From: a virus
Length of the DNA stretch: 64,000 nucleotides
Direction: 5' to 3' (one strand)
IMG/VR virus record: IMGVR_UViG_3300009610_000008
Span: 1 to 64,000 of that record
The position numbers were made by a program, and so were the translations under genes. Below are positions 303 through 63,988 of this stretch, piece by piece (position 1 is the stretch's first letter; each line of letters opens with the position of its first letter). The notes under the pieces were generated by a model. The model did not search any database and had not been told where the DNA came from. It worked only from the letters and a program-made list of their open reading frames with translations.

Positions 303-339
303 TAGACAGTAGCAAGGTAGACAAAGGAGAACCAATCAC

Positions 340-6624: not shown

Positions 6625-7857
6625 ATGGCAACCGAACAAGTAGCAGTAACCAAGACACCCAAGGCCCCGCCCGTGGCACCATCCAAGGGCAGCAAGGGTA
6701 CCACGGTGGACCTCACCGCCACACCCCTGGTCATCACCTCAGCCCAACAGTTGGACGTCAAATCCATTGTCCTGGTTGACAACCCCGGCCGAATGGATGG
6801 CGATAACAAGTTGGAGACCCTACGCCATGCCATTGAGCAGGCTGGCCAAGTCCTCAACCCCATCACTATTAGACCTACCACCGAAGATGATGGCGACCTC
6901 CACGCTGATGGCAAGTATGCAGTGGTAGATGGCAGACGACGCTTTCGATGCGCCAAGTCCATTGGATTCAAAACTGTACCCGTTGTCTTGTGGAACCCCG
7001 GCAAGGGCAAGGAGCGTATCACCAGTGTGCAGGGTGCGATACTTGCCAACCTCGCCAACCGCTCTCTCACTGCCCCTGAAATGTTAAATGCATTCCTGGC
7101 CCTGGCTGACGACATGGACTGGGATGTCAAGGTCCCCAAGCTGGGCGAGAAGGGCATTGGGACATGTGGCAAGGACGTCGAGAAGTTGGCCCGTTACACT
7201 GAGACATCCAAGGCCACCATCTACAGGACATTACGTCTCGGTCTACTGGACAAGGACATCCTCAAGAAGGTCCACAACAAAGAAGTTGGTGCCGACGCCG
7301 CCCGTGACATGGGTGGGCTGGTGCAAAATGGGTACCTCACCGAGGAGCAGGCAACGCTTGTCTTCGAGGAAGCCCTGGACATGAATGCCAAGAAGGCGAA
7401 GATCGACAATCGCCGTGACCCCAACGCCCCAGACACCCGTACCCCCGATCAAATACGGCTCGACAACCTGGAACGTAAGCGTAAGAAACTCAAGCGCGCC
7501 GCCGCCGCCAAGGCCAACGGGGGTGGTGGTGAGGTTGAGGAAGAGGAGGTCATCGCAGTGTCAAAGGCTGACCTCAAAGTTGCTGCCGCCAAGCTGGAGA
7601 AGGAGGGGAAGTTGACCACCAAGGCCAGTGCTGCTGTCGCTGAGGCCAGTGCCAAGGGTGCGGGGATCTCGGCTGATGCCAAGCAGATGGCCATGCGATT
7701 GAAACATCTCGATGACGTATGTGAGGATCTCATTAACGATGAAAATCCCCACATCGCCAAGCTGGGTGCGGCTCTCACCAAGTTCATGGAAGGACAACTC
7801 CTTGCCCCCGAGTTGGTGAAACAATTCGAGAAGCACTGCCTCCCCGCCACTGAGTAG
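6625..7857 (+). CDS. ParB-like nuclease/HTH-domain protein
   Basis: This 410-residue protein has a ParB/Srx-type N-terminal fold: VDNPGRMDGDNKLETLRHAI, PITIRP, and YAVVDGRRRFRCAKSIGF (about 98-115), followed by a predicted HTH (TSKATIYRTLRLGLL, about 190-204) and a long charged, Lys- and Glu-rich C-terminal half with low-complexity runs. ParB proteins bind short palindromes and spread; phage ParB-like proteins serve in partition, transcription or as nucleases. No ParA is visible. It is one of two natural candidates to bind the dispersed 13-bp palindrome. The RBS GGAGAACAG lies just after a palindrome copy. Confidence 0.75.
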   Translation: MATEQVAVTKTPKAPPVAPSKGSKGTTVDLTATPLVITSAQQLDVKSIVLVDNPGRMDGDNKLETLRHAIEQAGQVLNPITIRPTTEDDGDLHADGKYAVVDGRRRFRCAKSIGFKTVPVVLWNPGKGKERITSVQGAILANLANRSLTAPEMLNAFLALADDMDWDVKVPKLGEKGIGTCGKDVEKLARYTETSKATIYRTLRLGLLDKDILKKVHNKEVGADAARDMGGLVQNGYLTEEQATLVFEEALDMNAKKAKIDNRRDPNAPDTRTPDQIRLDNLERKRKKLKRAAAAKANGGGGEVEEEEVIAVSKADLKVAAAKLEKEGKLTTKASAAVAEASAKGAGISADAKQMAMRLKHLDDVCEDLINDENPHIAKLGAALTKFMEGQLLAPELVKQFEKHCLPATE

Positions 7858-7975: not shown

Positions 7976-8006
7976 TAGTTAGTGACCAACAACTGGAGAA
8001 CCAATC

Positions 8007-9287
8007 ATGGCATTACGTTTCCGCCCACACGAATCCCTATCATCCATCACCCGTGTCTTGCGCCAGTACCTCCATCTCCCTGACCCCCAGGTGTTGTATG
8101 TCGTACTTGGCACAGTCGCAGGTAACCATCTCCCTGGCCCACCCATCTGGACAATGTTAATCGGTGGCCCCAGTGCCGGTGGCTCGACACTCATCAATGC
8201 CTTACTTGGCTACACTGACGAGGAGAGTGGTGAACATCTCGTCACCCCAGTTAGACATACATACGGTCTCGACAGTGTCAAGGGTGAGGCCGCATTCTTA
8301 TCTGGTACACCCAAGCGGGACAAGGCCAAGGATGCGACAGGTGGTGTACTGAAACAGATCGAACGCGCTGGCGGCAATGGCCTACTGGTCATGAGTGATT
8401 TCACCAACATCCTCAACCTCAGGCCAGAACAACTCAACGAGGTGGTGGCCTGCCTGCGTATGATTTATGATGGCAAGTTCTACCGCGCCGTGGGCACTGA
8501 TGGTGCTCGAATGTTACAGTGGCAGGGCAAGGTTGGGTGTATCACTAAATCCACTGGTGCCATTGAATCCCATCACGGTGTCATGGGTGAGATGGGCCAA
8601 CGGTTTATTATGTGGAGGTATACGACAACCTGGGGCCACAGTGAGAACCTCAAGGCATTGGCGGTACGTAGTAAACGTGACATGGCTATCGACATTGCCC
8701 GCGCCGTAAGTGACCACCTCAATCGCACACTGGACATTGTCGACAAGGGTGATACACCGTTTGAACTGGAGGTGTACGAGAACCAGTGGACAAACTTTGC
8801 CGCCCAGTTTATATGCAGAGCACGCAGTATCATCCGCCGCGACAAGTTCAAGAGCGACATTGTCGAGTTCGTCCCACCCCCCGAAGGTCCAATGAGACTA
8901 TCACAGGAGTTCAAGTCCCTGTTCCTGGGGATGCAGGCCGCTGGCGTGGATGATAGTGATGCCCACCGTGCCTTGAATGCCATGCTATGGGGGTCGATGC
9001 AAAGTGTCCGTGGTCTCACATTGCAAGTGATGCTGTCCATCCTGCGTGACAAGGGCGCACCCACCGCGAAACATAGCTTCAACAGTGAGGAGATAGACAA
9101 GGGGATGGATGTGCAGTTCGAGGCTATGGGTTACCGCATGACTAGCCCCACGACGATACATCGCACTATGGATGACATTGAACATCTCGGTCTCATACGA
9201 CGCACTGCCGGGAGACGGGGTAAGAAGTTGGAATGGAAACTTGCCGACGACACCGCCGAGTTGTGCAAGGGATTACGCATACTGTAG
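8007..9287 (+). CDS. P-loop-like ATPase with C-terminal winged helix
   Basis: This 426-residue protein resembles the ATPase module found in phage primase/helicase-like proteins: a P-loop region GGPSAGGSTLINALLG (about 53-68), then LVMSDFTNILNL (Walker B-like) and a sensor-like region. The usual P-loop Lys is replaced by Gly (AGGST rather than GKST), so ATP hydrolysis is doubtful. The last 70 residues (TIHRTMDDIEHLGLIRRTAGRRGKK) look like a winged helix. It lies between ParB-like and DinG-like genes, consistent with replication. The start motif GGAGAACCAATC directly abuts the ATG. Confidence 0.6.
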   Translation: MALRFRPHESLSSITRVLRQYLHLPDPQVLYVVLGTVAGNHLPGPPIWTMLIGGPSAGGSTLINALLGYTDEESGEHLVTPVRHTYGLDSVKGEAAFLSGTPKRDKAKDATGGVLKQIERAGGNGLLVMSDFTNILNLRPEQLNEVVACLRMIYDGKFYRAVGTDGARMLQWQGKVGCITKSTGAIESHHGVMGEMGQRFIMWRYTTTWGHSENLKALAVRSKRDMAIDIARAVSDHLNRTLDIVDKGDTPFELEVYENQWTNFAAQFICRARSIIRRDKFKSDIVEFVPPPEGPMRLSQEFKSLFLGMQAAGVDDSDAHRALNAMLWGSMQSVRGLTLQVMLSILRDKGAPTAKHSFNSEEIDKGMDVQFEAMGYRMTSPTTIHRTMDDIEHLGLIRRTAGRRGKKLEWKLADDTAELCKGLRIL

Positions 9288-20790: not shown

Positions 20791-20829
20791 TACAGTTAAG
20801 TAGTTGATTCTAAAGGAGAACTAATCACA

Positions 20830-21312
20830 ATGAGAAAAGATACAATAGGCAAACCATTCATCACCCCTACCCCCGTGCGTTCCCTGGAGGAGCTGGCTAA
20901 ACCCAAGGTGGAACTAGCCACTGCTGGCGAGATGGAGAGTTTGATACGCGAAAGACAAGGCTACAAGGCCCAGGAGAAGGTGGCCCTCAACCTCATCGCC
21001 AAAATCAACCCTGTCATCTACTCGCACATGGCCCGGATGGAAGATGGTGTACAAATCCTGGTAGCCGACAGCCGTCTCCCCGAGGGCAAGGTATGGAAGG
21101 CGGTACTGGGGGGTGCGACACGTACCACTGTCAACCTGCCAGCCCTCAAAATGTCAATGCTCGCCCATGGGATACAACCTGCCAAGATCGACACCATTCT
21201 CAACTACGAGGTGCAGGTCGTGGACGAGGAGACCGGGAAGTTGACCCTGACTCAAGTGGTTAAGACGTCTACTAGTGATAGTGTCAACATCCGCATGGTC
21301 AACGCCGGTTAG
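20830..21312 (+). CDS. Hypothetical protein, 160 aa
   Basis: The sequence has a helical first half (MESLIRERQGYKAQEKVALNL) and a beta-rich second half (VQILVADSRLPEGKVWKAVL). No catalytic motif or family is recognised. The start motif AAAGGAGAACTAATCACA is a variant of the GGAGAACCAATCAC box, indicating high translation. The stop TAG is in a diverged palindrome (21308-21320) that also holds the next gene's ATG. Confidence 0.6.
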   Translation: MRKDTIGKPFITPTPVRSLEELAKPKVELATAGEMESLIRERQGYKAQEKVALNLIAKINPVIYSHMARMEDGVQILVADSRLPEGKVWKAVLGGATRTTVNLPALKMSMLAHGIQPAKIDTILNYEVQVVDEETGKLTLTQVVKTSTSDSVNIRMVNAG

Positions 21313-21606: not shown

Positions 21607-21885
21607 ATGATGAGCAAAACGTGGTCTGGCACGGAAGACATGGACGATGATTTGAATGGAGAACCAATCATGAACGACGAAGAGATATTGAACCGTATGC
21701 GCGAGGCCATCGCCTGCCTGGAGGAAGCCACCTTCGCCATACCCATTGAGGACCGGCAACAGTCTAAGTTGCGTAACCGCATCCAGGACGCCTACTGCCG
21801 GTTGGTGGAGGCACGCGAGGAGATGAGTGTACGTATTACAGTACAGGACAACGCCCGTAAGGCCATCGAAAGGATGTCACGATGA
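21607..21885 (+). CDS. Hypothetical helical protein with two in-frame starts
   Basis: The long form has 92 residues and starts behind AAGGAGAACAACC; an ATG 63 bases later (21670) is in frame and preceded exactly by the genome's best start motif, GGAGAACCAATC, giving a 71-residue form. Both could be made. The common part is helical and acidic (NDEEILNRMREAIACLEEATF). It overlaps the macro-domain gene by 4 bases (ATGATGA). Family unknown. Confidence 0.65.
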   Translation: MMSKTWSGTEDMDDDLNGEPIMNDEEILNRMREAIACLEEATFAIPIEDRQQSKLRNRIQDAYCRLVEAREEMSVRITVQDNARKAIERMSR

Positions 21886-44335: not shown

Positions 44336-45061
44336 CTACTTGCGTTTACCTGCCTTGGATCTACGGGCCTCCTCCAGCATGACATTGTCGTTGTCATCAT
44401 CCTGGGGTGGGCGCATGAGTTTGGTGGGGTCGGCTACGGCGTCACCAGCTTCACCAAGGGCGTCACCACTAGACATGGCGTCCAGGTCGACATCCGGGTC
44501 AACCGCAATGTTGGCAGTCTTGTCGCCACTGAGTTTGGCAACCATGGTGCGGAGGCGCGATAGTTCGGTCTCCTGGGCGGCGAGTTGCTGTTTCTGCTGG
44601 CGAATAAGTGGGTTCAATGTTGCTGAGACGTCGCCAACTATTTTGTCAGCCATCCGTTGGGCCTGGGTCTTGGTGGCCTCGACCATCTCTTCGGCGATGA
44701 GGATGGAGGCGACCCCACCTTCGGCAATCTCGGCCTCGCGGGAATCGTCCAGGGCCTTGATCCACAGCGGGTTGTTGGTACGCAGGACGCCCAGTGAGAC
44801 ATTGTGGCCGGGGGCGATGGTTTTGGGGACCGTCATGAATCTCATTTGTGCCGTAATGATGGAGTCCTTGCCTTGCGGGGTGGGCTTGGGGTTGACGAAG
44901 TGGACCTGCTTAGTGAGACCGGGGTATGTCAGTGAGTAGTATTCACGCATGGGTAGACTACGCCCATGGATCATGGGGTCGACCAGAGACAATATTGACA
45001 ATCCATACGACGGGTTGGCCAAGTAGTCGGCGACGACGGTGTCTGGGATGGTGGCGGTCAT
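44336..45061 (-). CDS. Virion-region protein, 241 aa
   Basis: The first 130 residues are alpha/beta, and a coiled coil (LIRQQKQQLAAQETELSRLR, about 155-174) and an acidic disordered tail follow. Such tails occur in scaffold-like or head-completion proteins. It follows a long hairpin-rich gap downstream of the capsid gene. RBS AAAAGGAGCACC is good. Family not recognised. Confidence 0.55.
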   Translation of the reverse strand: MTATIPDTVVADYLANPSYGLSILSLVDPMIHGRSLPMREYYSLTYPGLTKQVHFVNPKPTPQGKDSIITAQMRFMTVPKTIAPGHNVSLGVLRTNNPLWIKALDDSREAEIAEGGVASILIAEEMVEATKTQAQRMADKIVGDVSATLNPLIRQQKQQLAAQETELSRLRTMVAKLSGDKTANIAVDPDVDLDAMSSGDALGEAGDAVADPTKLMRPPQDDDNDNVMLEEARRSKAGKRK

Positions 45062-45132: not shown

Positions 45133-45168
45133 GGGGGCGGGTCGGCACCGCATATACCTCCCGCCCCC
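45133..45168 (-). terminator. GC-rich hairpin downstream of capsid genes
   Basis: GGGGGCGGG (45133-45141) pairs perfectly with CCCGCCCCC (45160-45168) over an 18-base loop. It lies after the major capsid and its small companion gene, where podoviruses such as T7 place a partial terminator. No U-tract follows on the minus strand, so it may act as a pause or RNA-end stabiliser. Confidence 0.45.
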
Positions 45169-45176
45169 GCTCGAAA

Positions 45177-45231
45177 CGTGACTGGCACTGGGGAGAACAG
45201 AACCACGTGTTGCCAGTGTCGCCCAGTCACG
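45177..45231 (-). other. Long hairpin exposing GUUCUCC in its loop
   Basis: CGTGACTGG (45177-45185) pairs with CCAGTCACG (45223-45231), and CACTGG (45186-45191) with CCAGTG (45213-45218): 15 bp in all, with a small bulge. On the minus transcript the 21-base loop ends with GTTCTCC, complementary to GGAGAAC, the core of the start motif. The second such case is at 57867. Confidence 0.5.
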
Positions 45232-45255: not shown

Positions 45256-45390
45256 CTACTTCTTGGACTTACCCTTGCCCGCCTTGTTCATGGCGATGGC
45301 AACCGATTGCTTGCCTGGGTAGCCCTCGTGGCGTAGTTTGGATATGTTACTGGAGACTGTCGATTTGGACGACCCTTTCTTGAGTGGCAT
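45256..45390 (-). CDS. Small basic protein, DUF6496-like
   Basis: The 44-residue protein ([20 protein letters not shown], then [17 protein letters not shown]) resembles the short DUF6496-type phage proteins with a QAxAIAL-like segment. A slightly longer form from 45402 is possible; neither has a clear Shine-Dalgarno. It follows the capsid gene by 17 bases and probably has a structural or DNA-associated role. Function unknown. Confidence 0.55.
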
Positions 45391-46674: not shown

Positions 46675-46687
46675 GTTAGTAACTAAC
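46675..46687. repeat. GTTAGTNACTAAC palindrome
   Basis: Perfect arms with central A, over the scaffold stop and before the capsid gene. Confidence 0.8.
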
Positions 46688-47966
46688 TAAAAATGCTGGT
46701 CGACTTGTTCGCAGCGATACGGAGGCGTTCCGCATCGGGGTTAGCGAATCGGCGCTGACTGGATGTCGCACTGGCATTGGCACCACCATTGGCGACACCG
46801 GCACTACGTTTGGCAATGATACTCGCGGCGGCTTTGGCGGCGGCAGTGGAGACAGTGGCACCTTTGCGTACCAGGGCTGTGGCGGCGGCGACCTTGGCGG
46901 TACGGGATTGCGACGAGGCGGCGTTACTGCGGGCTGAACGTGGCGCGAGATCGTGGGCTAGACGAATACGGTCAATCTCTAGCAACACTGCGCGGCGCTC
47001 GGCAGGAAGGTCAGCGTATTCCGGGTTTTCACTCAACCGGGAGACGCGCTGAGCAATCCTTGGATCAGACTTGAGGACTGCGACATACGCGGAGGGCCTG
47101 CCGTCCTTGGAGGGCTTGACGAACTCGGCGATGTCGGGGTCTGTCTTTTCCAACTTACTGAGTTGCACTATAGCAGACCTCTCGGCGGCTTGTCTACCGC
47201 GATAGTGGGCGGCGGTGGCATTGAGATGGTCGAATTGGGCAAGTTTTGGGGTGACGTCAGCGAGGAGTTTCTCACGCAGCCAGTCCAGGACAACGGGCGA
47301 CTTCATGTTGTGGACGAAGTCCTTGGCGAACTCGTAACGTCGGTGTTCCCGTAGTTCTTCAAAGGCACGGCGGCGCTGGGGTGCGCTGAGATTGGCATCC
47401 ATCGAGTCACTGTAGAGTTGTGCCTCCACGGTGTAGTGTTGCGCGGGGTCCATCACGATGGGGTCGGCATTGTCATCGGATGGCGCAGGGCGGGTGGGTG
47501 GTGGCGGGGTGGTGGTGGGGGTAGTGGGGGCGGTCAACTTGGCACGTTCGGCCTTGATTTCCCGTTCCAACTCGGTGAGGCGGCTGTCGTCGGGGGTGTC
47601 ACTGGGGGTGTCGTCGACAGAGGTTTCAGCAATGGTGGCCATCACCTCCTCGATCACCTTGACCTGCTTGGGGGTGAGGTTGTCGAGATCGTACCCTAAT
47701 TCGTCGGCGATGGTGGCGCGCTGGGTGTCGGCAGTGTCAGGGTCACCAGTGGGGGTGGCGGTGGCGGGCTTGGATGGCTTGGTTGCGAGTTCCTCCTCAC
47801 CATCTATGGGTTCACCATCACCAGTAGTGCCATCACCATCATCGTCCTGTTGTACCGCCCCTGTCCCCTCCTCCTGGGGGTCTTCCAACACGTTGTCGCC
47901 GCCGACTTGCTTGATCTCATCCATCGTGGTGGTACCCGTGGGATTGCCAAATGTTTGCATTGCCAT
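46683..47966 (-). CDS. Putative scaffolding protein
   Basis: This 427-residue protein is acidic and disordered up to about 120, has a coiled coil TELEREIKAERAKL (about 135-148), a helical middle and an Ala/Ser-rich basic C-terminus, the typical composition of phage scaffolds. It sits between portal and capsid genes. The start ATG 47966 follows AAGGAGAACAGAG; a longer frame beginning 33 bases upstream lacks a site. The palindrome at 47991 lies just before the RBS. Confidence 0.65.
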   Translation of the reverse strand: MAMQTFGNPTGTTTMDEIKQVGGDNVLEDPQEEGTGAVQQDDDGDGTTGDGEPIDGEEELATKPSKPATATPTGDPDTADTQRATIADELGYDLDNLTPKQVKVIEEVMATIAETSVDDTPSDTPDDSRLTELEREIKAERAKLTAPTTPTTTPPPPTRPAPSDDNADPIVMDPAQHYTVEAQLYSDSMDANLSAPQRRRAFEELREHRRYEFAKDFVHNMKSPVVLDWLREKLLADVTPKLAQFDHLNATAAHYRGRQAAERSAIVQLSKLEKTDPDIAEFVKPSKDGRPSAYVAVLKSDPRIAQRVSRLSENPEYADLPAERRAVLLEIDRIRLAHDLAPRSARSNAASSQSRTAKVAAATALVRKGATVSTAAAKAAASIIAKRSAGVANGGANASATSSQRRFANPDAERLRIAANKSTSIFS

Positions 47967-48023
47967 AATGTGTCTCTGTTCTCCTTGATACTTAGTCACT
48001 AACTGTCGCTTACTGTAACACGA

Positions 48024-56441: not shown

Positions 56442-57161
56442 CTAGCGGTTCTTACGTGCGTAGAGCGAGGTGCCCACGGTGGACTTGGGGGTCGTGGTGC
56501 TGGAGGCGGTGGCGGTGACAGGGGCATCACCGGCTGGGGGTGTGGCCGGTTGGACGGTGTGGGCGACATCGATGGATAGGGTACCATCACCGCCAATGAG
56601 GGAGCCACCAGACATGGAGAGGGTGAGGGGCATGTCGACAATGGGAGTGACACCGGGGAGGGCGGCGAAGGTGGCGGTACCGCCAGTGGCAGAGGTGAGG
56701 AAGGTGACCGGGACATCACTGGAGACGACAGTGTCGCCGCATTTGATTTGCAACATCCCACTCCCGGTATAGGTGGTGGTGCCGTAGGTGTAGGTGGCAA
56801 GGGCACTTTGGAATACCAGGGCCTCACCAGCGGCGGGTGCTGGGACGAGAGTGAGTGGGGTGGTGGATAGGGCAAGGATGTCGCTGGATGTGACCGGGGC
56901 AGTGACAGTGACTGGAGGCAATGGGGGCACTGGTGGTACATCTACTGGGGGGATGTAGTTGGTCGAGATGGTGCGCGACCCTGACACATCCTGGGTGATC
57001 ATGACGGGCGGGACGGTCTCGCCCTCGCGCGGGGCCGGGATGATATACGGGTCGTCGCCGTCGCCGGTACGGGTCTGTGGGAACGGGGCGAGAGGGGTGG
57101 CGGTGACCGTGGGTGGTGCAGTGACCACTGGGGTATGGGTGGTGGAAGTGGTGCTAGGCAT
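56442..57161 (-). CDS. Thr/Pro-rich decoration-like protein
   Basis: The 239-residue protein has a Thr/Pro-rich first 90 residues and an Ig-like beta domain (about 95-210: ALSTTPLTLVPAPAAGEALV ... GGTATFAALPGVTPIVDMPL), followed by a Thr/Ala-rich tail ending ARKNR. It may be a head decoration or tail accessory protein. Starts behind GGAGCG. No family is recognised. Confidence 0.55.
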   Translation of the reverse strand: MPSTTSTTHTPVVTAPPTVTATPLAPFPQTRTGDGDDPYIIPAPREGETVPPVMITQDVSGSRTISTNYIPPVDVPPVPPLPPVTVTAPVTSSDILALSTTPLTLVPAPAAGEALVFQSALATYTYGTTTYTGSGMLQIKCGDTVVSSDVPVTFLTSATGGTATFAALPGVTPIVDMPLTLSMSGGSLIGGDGTLSIDVAHTVQPATPPAGDAPVTATASSTTTPKSTVGTSLYARKNR

Positions 57162-57180: not shown

Positions 57181-57248
57181 GGAGGAGTATACACTATTAC
57201 ACTATTACACGGAGTAGACACTATTACACGGAGTAGACACTATTACAC
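57181..57248 (-). repeat. 19-bp tandem repeat
   Basis: GGAGTAGACACTATTACAC occurs twice without gap (57211-57229, 57230-57248), preceded by a degenerate copy from 57181. It covers the stop of the upstream gene and the leader of the next one on the minus strand. Possibly a slippage product or a binding site. Confidence 0.6.
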
Positions 57249-57782
57249 GCTGAAACCGGCGGCTTTTAGTTCTGCGTTGCGTTGCTGGAAGGCGGCGGCG
57301 TCACCGTCCTTGTCGTAGTCGAATGCCCACCACCCGGCACTGTACACTTCATACAAGCTGGAGCCGTTAGTGACTAACAGCCAGAACTGTGGGACAGTGA
57401 CGTAGCCATCTGGGGTCGGGGCGTAGATGTCGAATATCAACTGCGGCCAGTAGTTCCTGGCCCACTGTAGTACTGCGTCTGCCGTCTCGGGGGTGCAGTA
57501 GTCAACTGGGTTAAGGGGGTAGACGGGACGTTCAAAGCTGTAGCCTAAATTCACACTCCAGGGCCGCTCAAATGTCGATGGACCCACTGGTTGGAGGTTG
57601 TTGACATAGTAGATGCACTTGGTCACCGGGCTGTAGAGGTAACCGGGCATGGCGCGGACGAGGATTTTGGATAGGTCGATGGCGCGGGCGACAGCCTGCT
57701 GGTTGGGGGCAACGCCCTGAGGACCGGGTGCCGCAGGCACAGTAACAGTAGATGGTGTAGATGGCGTAGATGAGGTAGACAT
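57243..57782 (-). CDS. First gene of the late operon, hypothetical, 179 aa
   Basis: After a Ser/Thr/Pro-rich 25 residues, the protein has Tyr/Trp-rich alternating segments (PGYLYSPVTKCIYYVNNLQP; WARNYWPQLIFDIYAP). Its start follows CCAGGAGAACCACATAGTCC, a variant of the start motif. A perfect palindrome inside is read as Leu-Val-Thr-Asn. As the promoter-proximal gene it should be made early in the late phase; function unknown. Confidence 0.55.
   Translation of the reverse strand: MSTSSTPSTPSTVTVPAAPGPQGVAPNQQAVARAIDLSKILVRAMPGYLYSPVTKCIYYVNNLQPVGPSTFERPWSVNLGYSFERPVYPLNPVDYCTPETADAVLQWARNYWPQLIFDIYAPTPDGYVTVPQFWLLVTNGSSLYEVYSAGWWAFDYDKDGDAAAFQQRNAELKAAGFSV
57366..57378. repeat. GTTAGTSACTAAC palindrome
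   Basis: Perfect copy inside the first late gene, Leu-Val-Thr-Asn. Confidence 0.85.
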
Positions 57783-57829
57783 GGACTATGTGGTTCTCCT
57801 GGGGTAGTGGTCAACAGTGGTCAACATAA

Positions 57830-57929
57830 CCATGCGCCCAGCGGTGGGACAAGGGAGGAAGGTGGGGGAGAACCAATCACTGAACCACCCCACCCCACTA
57901 CTCCCCTGTAACCACTACTGGACGCATGG
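57830..57929 (-). ncRNA. Structured late leader with antisense copy of start motif
   Basis: On the minus transcript, CCATGCGTCCAG (57929-57918) pairs with CTGGGCGCATGG (57841-57830), 12 bp with one G-U, and inside it GGTGGGG/CCCCACC (7 bp). The inner loop region contains GTGATTGGTTCTCC (57880-57867), the exact complement of GGAGAACCAATCAC, which precedes genes at 340 and 62409 and, in part, several others. Whether it acts in trans is untested. Confidence 0.5.
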
Positions 57930-57975
57930 CCTGCTCGTATGGCATCAACGTGACTAGAACAACACTACACTATAT

Positions 57976-58005
57976 ATGGTAGCAGATGTTGACGTGGCGT
58001 GTCAA
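57976..58005 (-). promoter_or_regulatory. Late operon promoter overlapped by 17-bp operator
   Basis: On the minus strand TTGACA (58005-58000), an 18-bp spacer and TACCAT (57981-57976) form a promoter. The dyad TTGACACGCCACGTCAA (58005-57989) over the -35 differs from the one at 6339-6355 in a single central base, so one protein probably controls both. The leader to the first gene is about 185 bases. Confidence 0.65.
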
Positions 58006-58116
58006 GTAGTGGGTGGAGTGACTAACTTTTTAATCCTTGACAAATGCGACATCCTGTGGTACGCGCGTGCGCGCCCGTTTCCTTTATATGTTTCATTTCA
58101 ACTTTTCACCAGCGTT

Positions 58117-58782
58117 TCATTTCAACGTTGCGCCAAACTTCGCATCCATCCGTTGTTTGACCAGTGGCAGTGCCTTGTACAGGGGGAGGTAGTCGCCGGT
58201 GGTGGGGTCGCGCCACGTGTCGGGCTTGATACCTACCCGCCATCCCGCTTGGTGCATGACGACGCGCCAGTCGATGATGCGATGCATTGACAGGTAGAGG
58301 GTCAGGTCATGGATGGTGGTCATCAGGACGTTGTTGGGGAGTTGGAATGACGGGAGTTCACCACTAGACATTAACAGGGCGGCACTGCGGGGAGTGATGT
58401 TGAGAATAGTGGCTACTGACTCAGTGTCGATGAACACCGCATTGAGCACATCACTTAGCCCACCGTGGACCGGCACATCCCACCAGTCGATTGGCAGGTT
58501 GTGCTTTGTGGCCAAGCGGTGGCGGTATTGGATGGCTTGGGAGTAGCGGCACATTTGGGCGAAGTATCGACGCCAGCTGGGGGGTAGTGGTTCCACTGGG
58601 GGTAGTGGTCGGACGGCTGCGGCCAACACTGGCGCACTGGCTAGGATCTCGTCACGTGTGAGGCCGATGTCGTCGCGCATCGCTTGAGGTAACTTGTACC
58701 TGCGTGACACCAGGGTGCGGTTGCGGCGTGGTTGGGTTGGCTTGGCCTTTGGGGTGCCATTGACAGTGATGGTCCTAGCCAT
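58117..58782 (-). CDS. Excisionase-like HTH protein
   Basis: This 221-residue protein has a basic N-terminus and, at about 115-155, SVATILNITPRSAALLMSSGELPSFQLPNN, the pattern of HTH_17/excisionase-type winged helices. It lies directly after the HTH gene (8-base overlap) and integrase, which fits a recombination directionality factor or a regulator. Residues 60-100 carry a Trp/Tyr-rich helical region of unknown role. Confidence 0.5.
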   Translation of the reverse strand: MARTITVNGTPKAKPTQPRRNRTLVSRRYKLPQAMRDDIGLTRDEILASAPVLAAAVRPLPPVEPLPPSWRRYFAQMCRYSQAIQYRHRLATKHNLPIDWWDVPVHGGLSDVLNAVFIDTESVATILNITPRSAALLMSSGELPSFQLPNNVLMTTIHDLTLYLSMHRIIDWRVVMHQAGWRVGIKPDTWRDPTTGDYLPLYKALPLVKQRMDAKFGATLK

Positions 58783-61815: not shown

Positions 61816-61851
61816 GTATACAGGGAATGCGCTATTGGAGAATCAATCACA

Positions 61852-62280
61852 ATGGCTATCAATTTCGTTCAGAAGACCAATGGCTCCGCCAAGGTTGCGA
61901 CAGTACCGTCAGCAGTCCCGCCGATGGACATCTCGGCTCTCATCGCTGCTGCCGTGGCCGACGCCATGGCCAAGGTAATGGCACCGTCCCACGTGGCCGC
62001 ACCCAAAGCCCAAGCTGTCGATCCGGCCATGGTTGCCGAGATTGCACGCCTGAAGGCTGAGAATGCCAAACTTGCCGCAGCCAAGCCCGTCGCCAAGGTC
62101 AAGCGCCCATTGGTTTTCAAGGTCTCGGAGAAACGCGCCATGTCCATCTACAACCTGGGCGCTCGGTTTCCCGTCACGCTGTACAAAGAGCAGATGTTGG
62201 CCTTACTCGATGCCGAGAAGGACATCCGCGCCTTCCTCAAAGACAACGACGCCCTACTAGCCAACAAGGGCGATAACTAG
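61852..62280 (+). CDS. First early gene, hypothetical, 142 aa
   Basis: An Ala-rich helical N-terminal half (ISALIAAAVADAMAKVMAPS), a coiled-coil AEIARLKAENAKLAAAKP (about 63-80) and a basic C-terminal domain (KRPLVFKVSEKRAMSIYNLG) suggest a DNA- or RNA-binding oligomer. The C-terminal half resembles no family I can name. The start box GGAGAATCAATCACA precedes the ATG, 37 bases after the large 12-bp hairpin. Confidence 0.65.
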   Translation: MAINFVQKTNGSAKVATVPSAVPPMDISALIAAAVADAMAKVMAPSHVAAPKAQAVDPAMVAEIARLKAENAKLAAAKPVAKVKRPLVFKVSEKRAMSIYNLGARFPVTLYKEQMLALLDAEKDIRAFLKDNDALLANKGDN

Positions 62281-62359: not shown

Positions 62360-62408
62360 CCGTGTTTTGGATGACTAGTCCATCACGGTAGTAGGAGAAC
62401 CAATCACC

Positions 62409-62573
62409 ATGTCCATGTTCCAAGTCATGTTCACGCCCGTCAAGGGTGTCGCTGTCCTAGCCACGACTCCGCTAGGTGCCCGTCGCAAGGCGGAACGCAT
62501 CTACTACCGCGAAGGCAAGGCTATCAGTGTCGATCCTATCCCGCAGGATAGCGATTGGACCAACGAGGACTAA
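62409..62573 (+). CDS. Small early protein, 54 aa
   Basis: This short basic-then-acidic protein (MSMFQVMFTPVKGVAVLATT, ending QDSDWTNED) is preceded by the exact box GGAGAACCAATCAC plus one base. No family is recognised. The beta-strand-rich start and helical middle (GARRKAERIYYREG) look like a folded small protein. Confidence 0.65.
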   Translation: MSMFQVMFTPVKGVAVLATTPLGARRKAERIYYREGKAISVDPIPQDSDWTNED

Positions 62574-62973: not shown

Positions 62974-63028
62974 GCCCGTTAGCTGGGTTAACCCCAGTGA
63001 TATCAACAACTTAGGAGAGAACCAATCC

Positions 63029-63316
63029 ATGCGATACTTCAACTCGCTCATCCGGGCCATGGCCTACGCGACAGTCGCCACCTATGCCTTGTACACAGTA
63101 GGCGACATGCATACCAAGCATCTCGCGGTCGAACTGGCCGACATCCAGGCCAAGGCCGACCAAGTACGGTACGACAGTGAGTTTGCCGTGACCCTCGGTG
63201 GCTGCGCAACCGACACCGAGTGTGCCATGGCGGAAGCCGCTGCTGTCAAGGCTGTGGCTAAAGAGCGTAGCCTGGGTAGCAACGGTGGTGGCGGACGGCT
63301 AATGGCTGGACGATAG
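63029..63316 (+). CDS. Early membrane-anchored protein, 95 aa
   Basis: The N-terminus (FNSLIRAMAYATVATYALYT, about 4-23) is a membrane anchor or signal; the rest is a helix-rich acidic domain with two Cys (GGCATDTECAMAEA) and a Gly-rich end. An in-frame upstream extension lacks a start site; AGGAGAGAACCAATCC precedes this ATG. Function unknown. Confidence 0.6.
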   Translation: MRYFNSLIRAMAYATVATYALYTVGDMHTKHLAVELADIQAKADQVRYDSEFAVTLGGCATDTECAMAEAAAVKAVAKERSLGSNGGGGRLMAGR

Positions 63317-63888: not shown

Positions 63889-63988
63889 CGTAGCGCAGAC
63901 AACTAGACAGCGCATGGGTAGTGACAGTATCCATGCTCTGGCGTAGCTGCCTGGGATACAGGGACAGTGACAAGGGAGAACTAAACAC

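Follow-up and report, generated by a model that had tools for sequence, protein, structure and literature searches.

A late leader hairpin of a metagenomic virus presents a loop antisense to early start boxes: a candidate trans-acting RNA

The late leader of the virus studied here is well supported by sequence comparison as an RNA hairpin which would present, in its loop, a conserved antisense copy of the box found at the start of early genes. Its pairing potential is well supported by the sequence; the leader probably acts in trans as an antisense RNA and represses early translation at the early-to-late switch. We infer that the leader is transcribed late, that its RNA is stable and pairs with its targets in the cell, and that repression is the outcome; it might act either by itself, as a small RNA, or within the long mRNA.

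By the window we mean the whole stretch of DNA analysed, 64,000 of the 64,917 bases of a virus record. Among the 50,697 phage records of INPHARED we found no nucleotide relative of the region or of the 40–64 kb stretch, and its terminase protein had no match in INPHARED phages. Plus-strand genes occupy both flanks and include two helicases, a ParB-like protein and DNA polymerase segments; a minus-strand block contains the terminase, the major head protein and a tail gene. The labels early and late are deduced from this division between plus-strand flanks and minus-strand block: with a simple script, which is an approximation, we called 68 genes, 41 early and 27 late. The window also has 33 copies of an 11-bp palindrome, TTAGTNACTAA (0.01 expected), for example at 2282, 47992 and 56272. 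Many of them are found directly before genes, on both strands; they are reminiscent of dispersed repeats, or of stoperator-like sites, in some actinobacteriophages. A short tandem repeat with ACACTATTACACGGAGTAG units is present at 57181–57250, between genes 56442–57161 and 57243–57782.

The start box takes two main forms, noticed in a preliminary description of this DNA: the 14-mer GGAGAACCAATCAC before the ATG codons at 340 and 62409, and the 12-mer GGAGAACCAATC before those at 8007 and 21670. All four are confirmed. Every site of these two sequences lies directly before a start codon, except for the one at 57867. With up to two mismatches the box is found at 16 sites, while 4.8 are expected, and no shuffle reached 16. 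The full box is absent from most early genes. Its positions are given in Table 1 together with those of the other features.

Table 1. Start boxes, leader elements and hairpins in the window
Feature	Position	Strand	Remarks
Early start box GGAGAACCAATCAC	326–339	+	before gene 340–480
Early start box GGAGAACCAATCAC	62394–62407	+	before gene 62409–62573
Early start box GGAGAACCAATC	7995–8006	+	before gene 8007–9287
Early start box GGAGAACCAATC	21658–21669	+	before ORF starting at 21670
Early start box, wobble variant GGAGAACTAATCAC	20815–20828	+	before gene 20830–21312
Early start box, wobble variant GGAGAATCAATCAC	61837–61850	+	before gene 61852–62280
Early start box AGAGAACCAATC (as GGAGAGAACCAATC)	63016–63027	+	before gene 63029–63316
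Early start box variant GGAGAACTAAACAC	63975–63988	+	before gene 63989
Putative −35 box TTGACA	58000–58005	−	late promoter; within dyad TTGAC-N7-GTCAA
Putative −10 box TACCAT	57976–57981	−	TATACT in most relatives; 18-bp spacing; consensus reading
Invariant leader block GTTGATGCCATACGAGC	57933–57949	−	
Leader hairpin, 104 nt	57828–57931	−	predicted fold; stem variable between lineages yet paired
Invariant 18-nt loop GTTCAGTGATTGGTTCTC	57868–57885	−	antisense to early start box
RBS of the leader's own gene, GGAGAACCACATAGTCC	57783–57799	−	9 nt complementary to loop (13/14 in relatives)
First gene after leader	57243–57782	−	179 aa; no Pfam or PHROGs match
Hairpin 2a	45177–45231	−	loop antisense to start box GGAGAACAGA of late gene 46683–47966
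Hairpin 2b	45133–45168	−	loop antisense to start of next gene, 44336–45061
Start box GGAGAACAGAGACACATT of gene 46683–47966	47967–47984	−	

The exceptional site, at 57867–57880 on the plus strand, is the single antisense copy of the 14-mer and precedes the first gene after the leader. It lies inside the gap 57783–58116 between two minus-strand genes, so that minus-strand RNA carries its complement there. As had been proposed, this complement is part of a stem-loop: we find it in a long rod hairpin, whose 18-nt loop holds GUUCAGUGAUUGGUUCUC. On the minus strand the leader reads as follows: TTGACA, an 18-nt spacer, a −10-like box, the block GTTGATGCCATACGAGC, the hairpin, the RBS and the gene. 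A putative sigma70-like promoter is thus placed directly upstream of the hairpin. The first-pass fold z-scores for long stretches were poor (0.09 and −2.38), because dinucleotide shuffles fold well too; an arm-shuffle test was used in their place. None of 1000 arm shuffles was as stable as the hairpin in the window, and the same was found for two of its relatives (L013 and L019). We saw no U-run terminator after the hairpin in the sequence. Rfam had no gathering-score match in the window and gave only sub-threshold hairpin look-alikes for the leader.

The block GTTGATGCCATACGAGC offers a weak lead of its own: over 11 nt it is complementary to the beginning of gene 6625–7857, which encodes the ParB-like protein. 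The complement is 10 nt long in G001 and interrupted in G002; as antisense to that gene the block holds in the window and G001 and weakens in G002 and G004, and we have rejected this role. Outside this clade the block has only chance-like matches.

A terminase search of IMG/VR gave 19 loci. Six contigs, those of L013, L024, L009, L012, L019 and L018/L031, have the leader in a syntenic position and represent two lineages in addition to the window; only about three independent leader lineages were found. The loop is identical in the window, in L013/L024 and in L009/L012/L019, while the sequence of the stem differs and its pairing is kept in each lineage. TTGACA, GTCAA and the block GTTGATGCCATACGAGC are also invariant. 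In all six records with the leader, the box occurs in reverse orientation exactly once. In viral_contigs the 18-mer is found only in this leader and in four contigs (L029, L032–L034), where a single unrelated locus has it by coincidence. The leader is absent upstream of the 57243–57782 protein in the more distant carriers L002–L006, L126–L130, L136, L139, L140 and L142–L145. The relatives retain their early start boxes: the main variants are GGAGAACTAATC and GGAGAATCAATC, whose pairing with the loop is preserved by G-U. The AACCAATC part persists even when its distance from GGAG varies (GGAGAGAACCAATC, GGAGAATGAACCAATC, GGAGGAACCAATCAC).

The loop has a clear preference for early genes. When duplex energies are computed over the 68 gene starts, the 13 best partners are all early and the leader's own gene comes 14th; the difference between early and late starts has p = 0.008. 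At −20 kcal/mol or below we find 6 of 41 early starts and none of 27 late ones in the window, and none of 1000 shuffled loops reached six partners at that energy. In the relatives the corresponding early starts are 7/37, 5/56 and 5/14, with one at most for shuffled loops. Box variants with C changed to T keep their pairing as G-U wobbles: −22.7 and −22.4 versus −23.5 kcal/mol. The best partners, several early genes, have no recognised function, and none was recognised as an antirepressor. An invariant loop on a changing but paired stem, the retention of the boxes and the early preference strongly support the antisense relation.

A second site on the minus strand, at 45133–45231 after the major head gene, has two tandem hairpins with changing stems and conserved loops, both in the window and in its relatives. 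The preliminary description had noted GUUCUCC in the loop of a further hairpin on late RNA, at 45192–45212. The hairpin is real, but its best partner is the start of the late gene 46683–47966 and not the CCAATC box. This gene, whose position just upstream of the head gene suggests a scaffold, is the best of the 68 partners of loop 2a, and gene 44336–45061 is the third of 68 for loop 2b. Support for the 2a stem is less firm than for the leader stem: in three lineages, arm shuffles as stable numbered 10, 67 and 23 of 1000. Judging from these sequences, the phage group may rely on several antisense loops, in cis and in trans.

The mechanism which we propose is as follows. The 5' leader of the late transcript would be a regulatory RNA, whose strong stem displays the 18-nt loop. 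The extended start box GGAGAACCAAUCAC, or a G-U-compatible variant of it, stands just before the start codons of a set of early genes, and the loop contains its exact complement. Once the late promoter fires the leader would accumulate, and its loop would pair with early mRNAs over the Shine-Dalgarno sequence and the spacer, so that ribosome loading is blocked. Early translation would then fall while late transcription rises.

The live rival is control in cis, since the loops of the second site are antisense to late gene starts and that of 2b is directed to the gene immediately downstream. The leader loop would pair with the RBS of its own first gene, about 70 nt downstream, as a loop-RBS pseudoknot or an alternative hairpin; the match with early boxes would only reflect a shared type of RBS. 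When the leader is folded with a shorter flank the loop does pair with that RBS, an alternative absent from the preliminary description, and in the relatives this complement rises from the 9 nt of the window to 13/14 (−19 to −20 kcal/mol). We consider this reading rather unlikely. In the window the pairing in cis is weaker than with early boxes (−15.5 versus −23.5 kcal/mol) and ranks 14th, and the 5' half of the loop, GUUCAGUGAU, is invariant yet largely unpaired with the cis box. The cis box of the window has drifted while the loop has not changed, which suggests that it is the early boxes that keep the loop conserved. Furthermore, the gene after the comparable hairpin in K1 mycobacteriophages, described below, lacks the start box of those phages.

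The two actions might also be combined: the loop would repress early genes in trans and tune its own gene in cis, and a slight mismatch retained in the cis box would let the late gene escape. In the relatives a single non-wobble mismatch (U-U) is conserved in the cis box, and the cis box of the window shows five differences from the early box. The mismatch may be neutral, and there are three lineages only; we find such a double role improbable. Still less probable is a site for a phage protein, which would recognise the 14-mer in both orientations, as DNA or RNA, with no RNA-RNA pairing. The sequence is indeed short and repeated, and the gap also contains a dyad in the promoter, but the motif is found immediately before start codons and not in promoters, its one copy in reverse forms the loop on a stem which changes in sequence and remains paired, and the common box variants are those which keep G-U pairs. 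Finally, GGAGAACCAATCACTGAACC on the plus strand resembles a start box whose ATG has been damaged, and the preliminary description would have abandoned its proposal for a relic of a lost plus-strand gene; such a relic, or chance, is hardly credible after the conservation of the loop, the ranking of early partners, the shuffles and the G-U box variants, given that the 18-mer GAGAACCAATCACTGAAC is identical in all leader-bearing relatives, that TGAAC is conserved as part of what is always a hairpin loop with ATG there in none of them, and that chance alone would, by simple arithmetic, yield any particular 14-mer about 0.0005 times in the genome.

Trans repression by the late leader can be compared with several known systems. 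In cis-acting loop-RBS pseudoknot leaders the hairpin loop forms base pairs with an RBS located downstream. Hairpin 2b, and in part the leader hairpin, could pair in the same way; what sets the leader hairpin apart is a loop which matches several distant early genes more closely than the gene downstream of it.

The c4 antisense RNA of P1 and P7 has complementary segments, probably in loops, which block translation around the RBS (PMC12197685). The leader loop is likewise complementary to sequences around the RBS of its targets. However, c4 is directed to the antirepressor gene ant and serves immunity (PMC12197685), whereas here one loop matches a box common to several early genes and sits in the late leader. 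StxS of Stx phages is a small RNA from the leader of a late promoter, which acts in trans and binds the RBS of stx1B (PMC7873438). The leader described here also lies between a promoter-like sequence and the first gene of the late strand; it would be transcribed late, and RNA-seq supports such timing only in the K1 phages. StxS differs in being made by termination during lysogeny, in being bound by Hfq and in its targets, a toxin gene and the host rpoS (PMC7873438). It has no common early start box.

The start associated sequences (SAS) of mycobacteriophage cluster K and of Microbacterium phages of cluster EF are 13-bp boxes at the starts of non-structural genes, which extend past the Shine-Dalgarno sequence (PMC3203893, PMC7302621). 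The consensus is GGGATAGGAGCCC in cluster K and GGGAAAGGACCCC in cluster EF. SAS have been known since 2011 without an assigned function. An antisense RNA is not proposed for them in the passages considered, where Pope 2011 allows for an RNA or a protein as partner and names neither (PMC3203893). One reverse SAS copy is reported in subcluster K1. Paired 17-bp inverted repeats, ESAS, are found upstream of about half of the SAS boxes. A limited search of the literature gave no proposal of an antisense partner for SAS, and a search for antisense RNAs in phage late leaders gave no match.

In the K1 phage Adephagia we find that the reverse SAS, at 58682–58694, is the loop of a strong hairpin between genes 92 and 93. 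RNA-seq places a late transcription start in this gap (PMC11373665). Gene 93 comes next after the hairpin and lacks SAS, so that no target in cis is available at this place and action in trans is favoured. Six K1 phages share the loop GGCCUCCUAUCCC on differing stems; it pairs with SAS at −21.7 kcal/mol, reached by none of 5000 shuffled loops. The stem test is weak for Anaya and Niklas, with 56 and 29 of 1000 arm shuffles as stable. Hammy, Amgine and Unicorn also have the hairpin with a weaker match to SAS (about 1–4% of shuffles are as good); the pairing of the Hammy and Unicorn loops is only modestly better than that of shuffles. No anti-SAS loop was found in the late leaders of Pixie, Hurricane, Kratio, Aminay and ZoeJ, all of which were shown to have SAS with the exception of Hurricane. 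Within cluster K a clear anti-SAS hairpin is found in K1 only. Microbacterium phage AnnaSerena, with its own SAS, was also tried and has no such hairpin. The presence of SAS phages which lack the hairpin indicates that it is not needed for the use of SAS in general.

Two other features of cluster K are worth recording. Fionnbharth (JN831653, L105) has a very strong hairpin at about 45260–45330, between genes 73 and 74 and outside the late leader; its loop, UCCUCCUAUC, is complementary to the SAS core. The late leaders of the cluster (L098–L119) share TTAGACT...GCACAACTGTGCCC, a conserved late promoter and leader element, in most cases followed by a terminator-like hairpin.

A general phage switch is conceivable on these grounds, an idea which we hold only tentatively: a common early start box would let a single late-leader RNA silence the early genes together, and unrelated phages, this soil-type metagenomic group and the K1 mycobacteriophages, would have built it independently, which would explain at least part of the SAS puzzle. 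If this were true, start boxes would be addressable tags, through which the whole early gene set is shut down at translation in one step. The loops at 45133–45231, antisense to other gene starts, would extend the switch to late genes, and such RNAs could be predicted in other phages from a start box that occurs once in reverse, inside the loop of a hairpin. The laboratory strain M. smegmatis mc2 155 supports the growth of Adephagia and other K1 phages, which makes the idea directly testable.

The differences from SAS phages are that the phages are unrelated and that several SAS phages lack the hairpin. The 11-bp palindrome frequent in the window is not the 17-bp inverted repeat of ESAS. The likeness lies in a conserved box which many non-structural genes carry in place of a plain RBS, reaching beyond the Shine-Dalgarno sequence, and in its reverse copy, found in K1 as here in the hairpin loop of the late leader. 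The box of the window, GGAGAACCAATCAC, is neither GGGATAGGAGCCC nor GGGAAAGGACCCC: it appears to work in the same way as SAS and belongs to a different sequence family.
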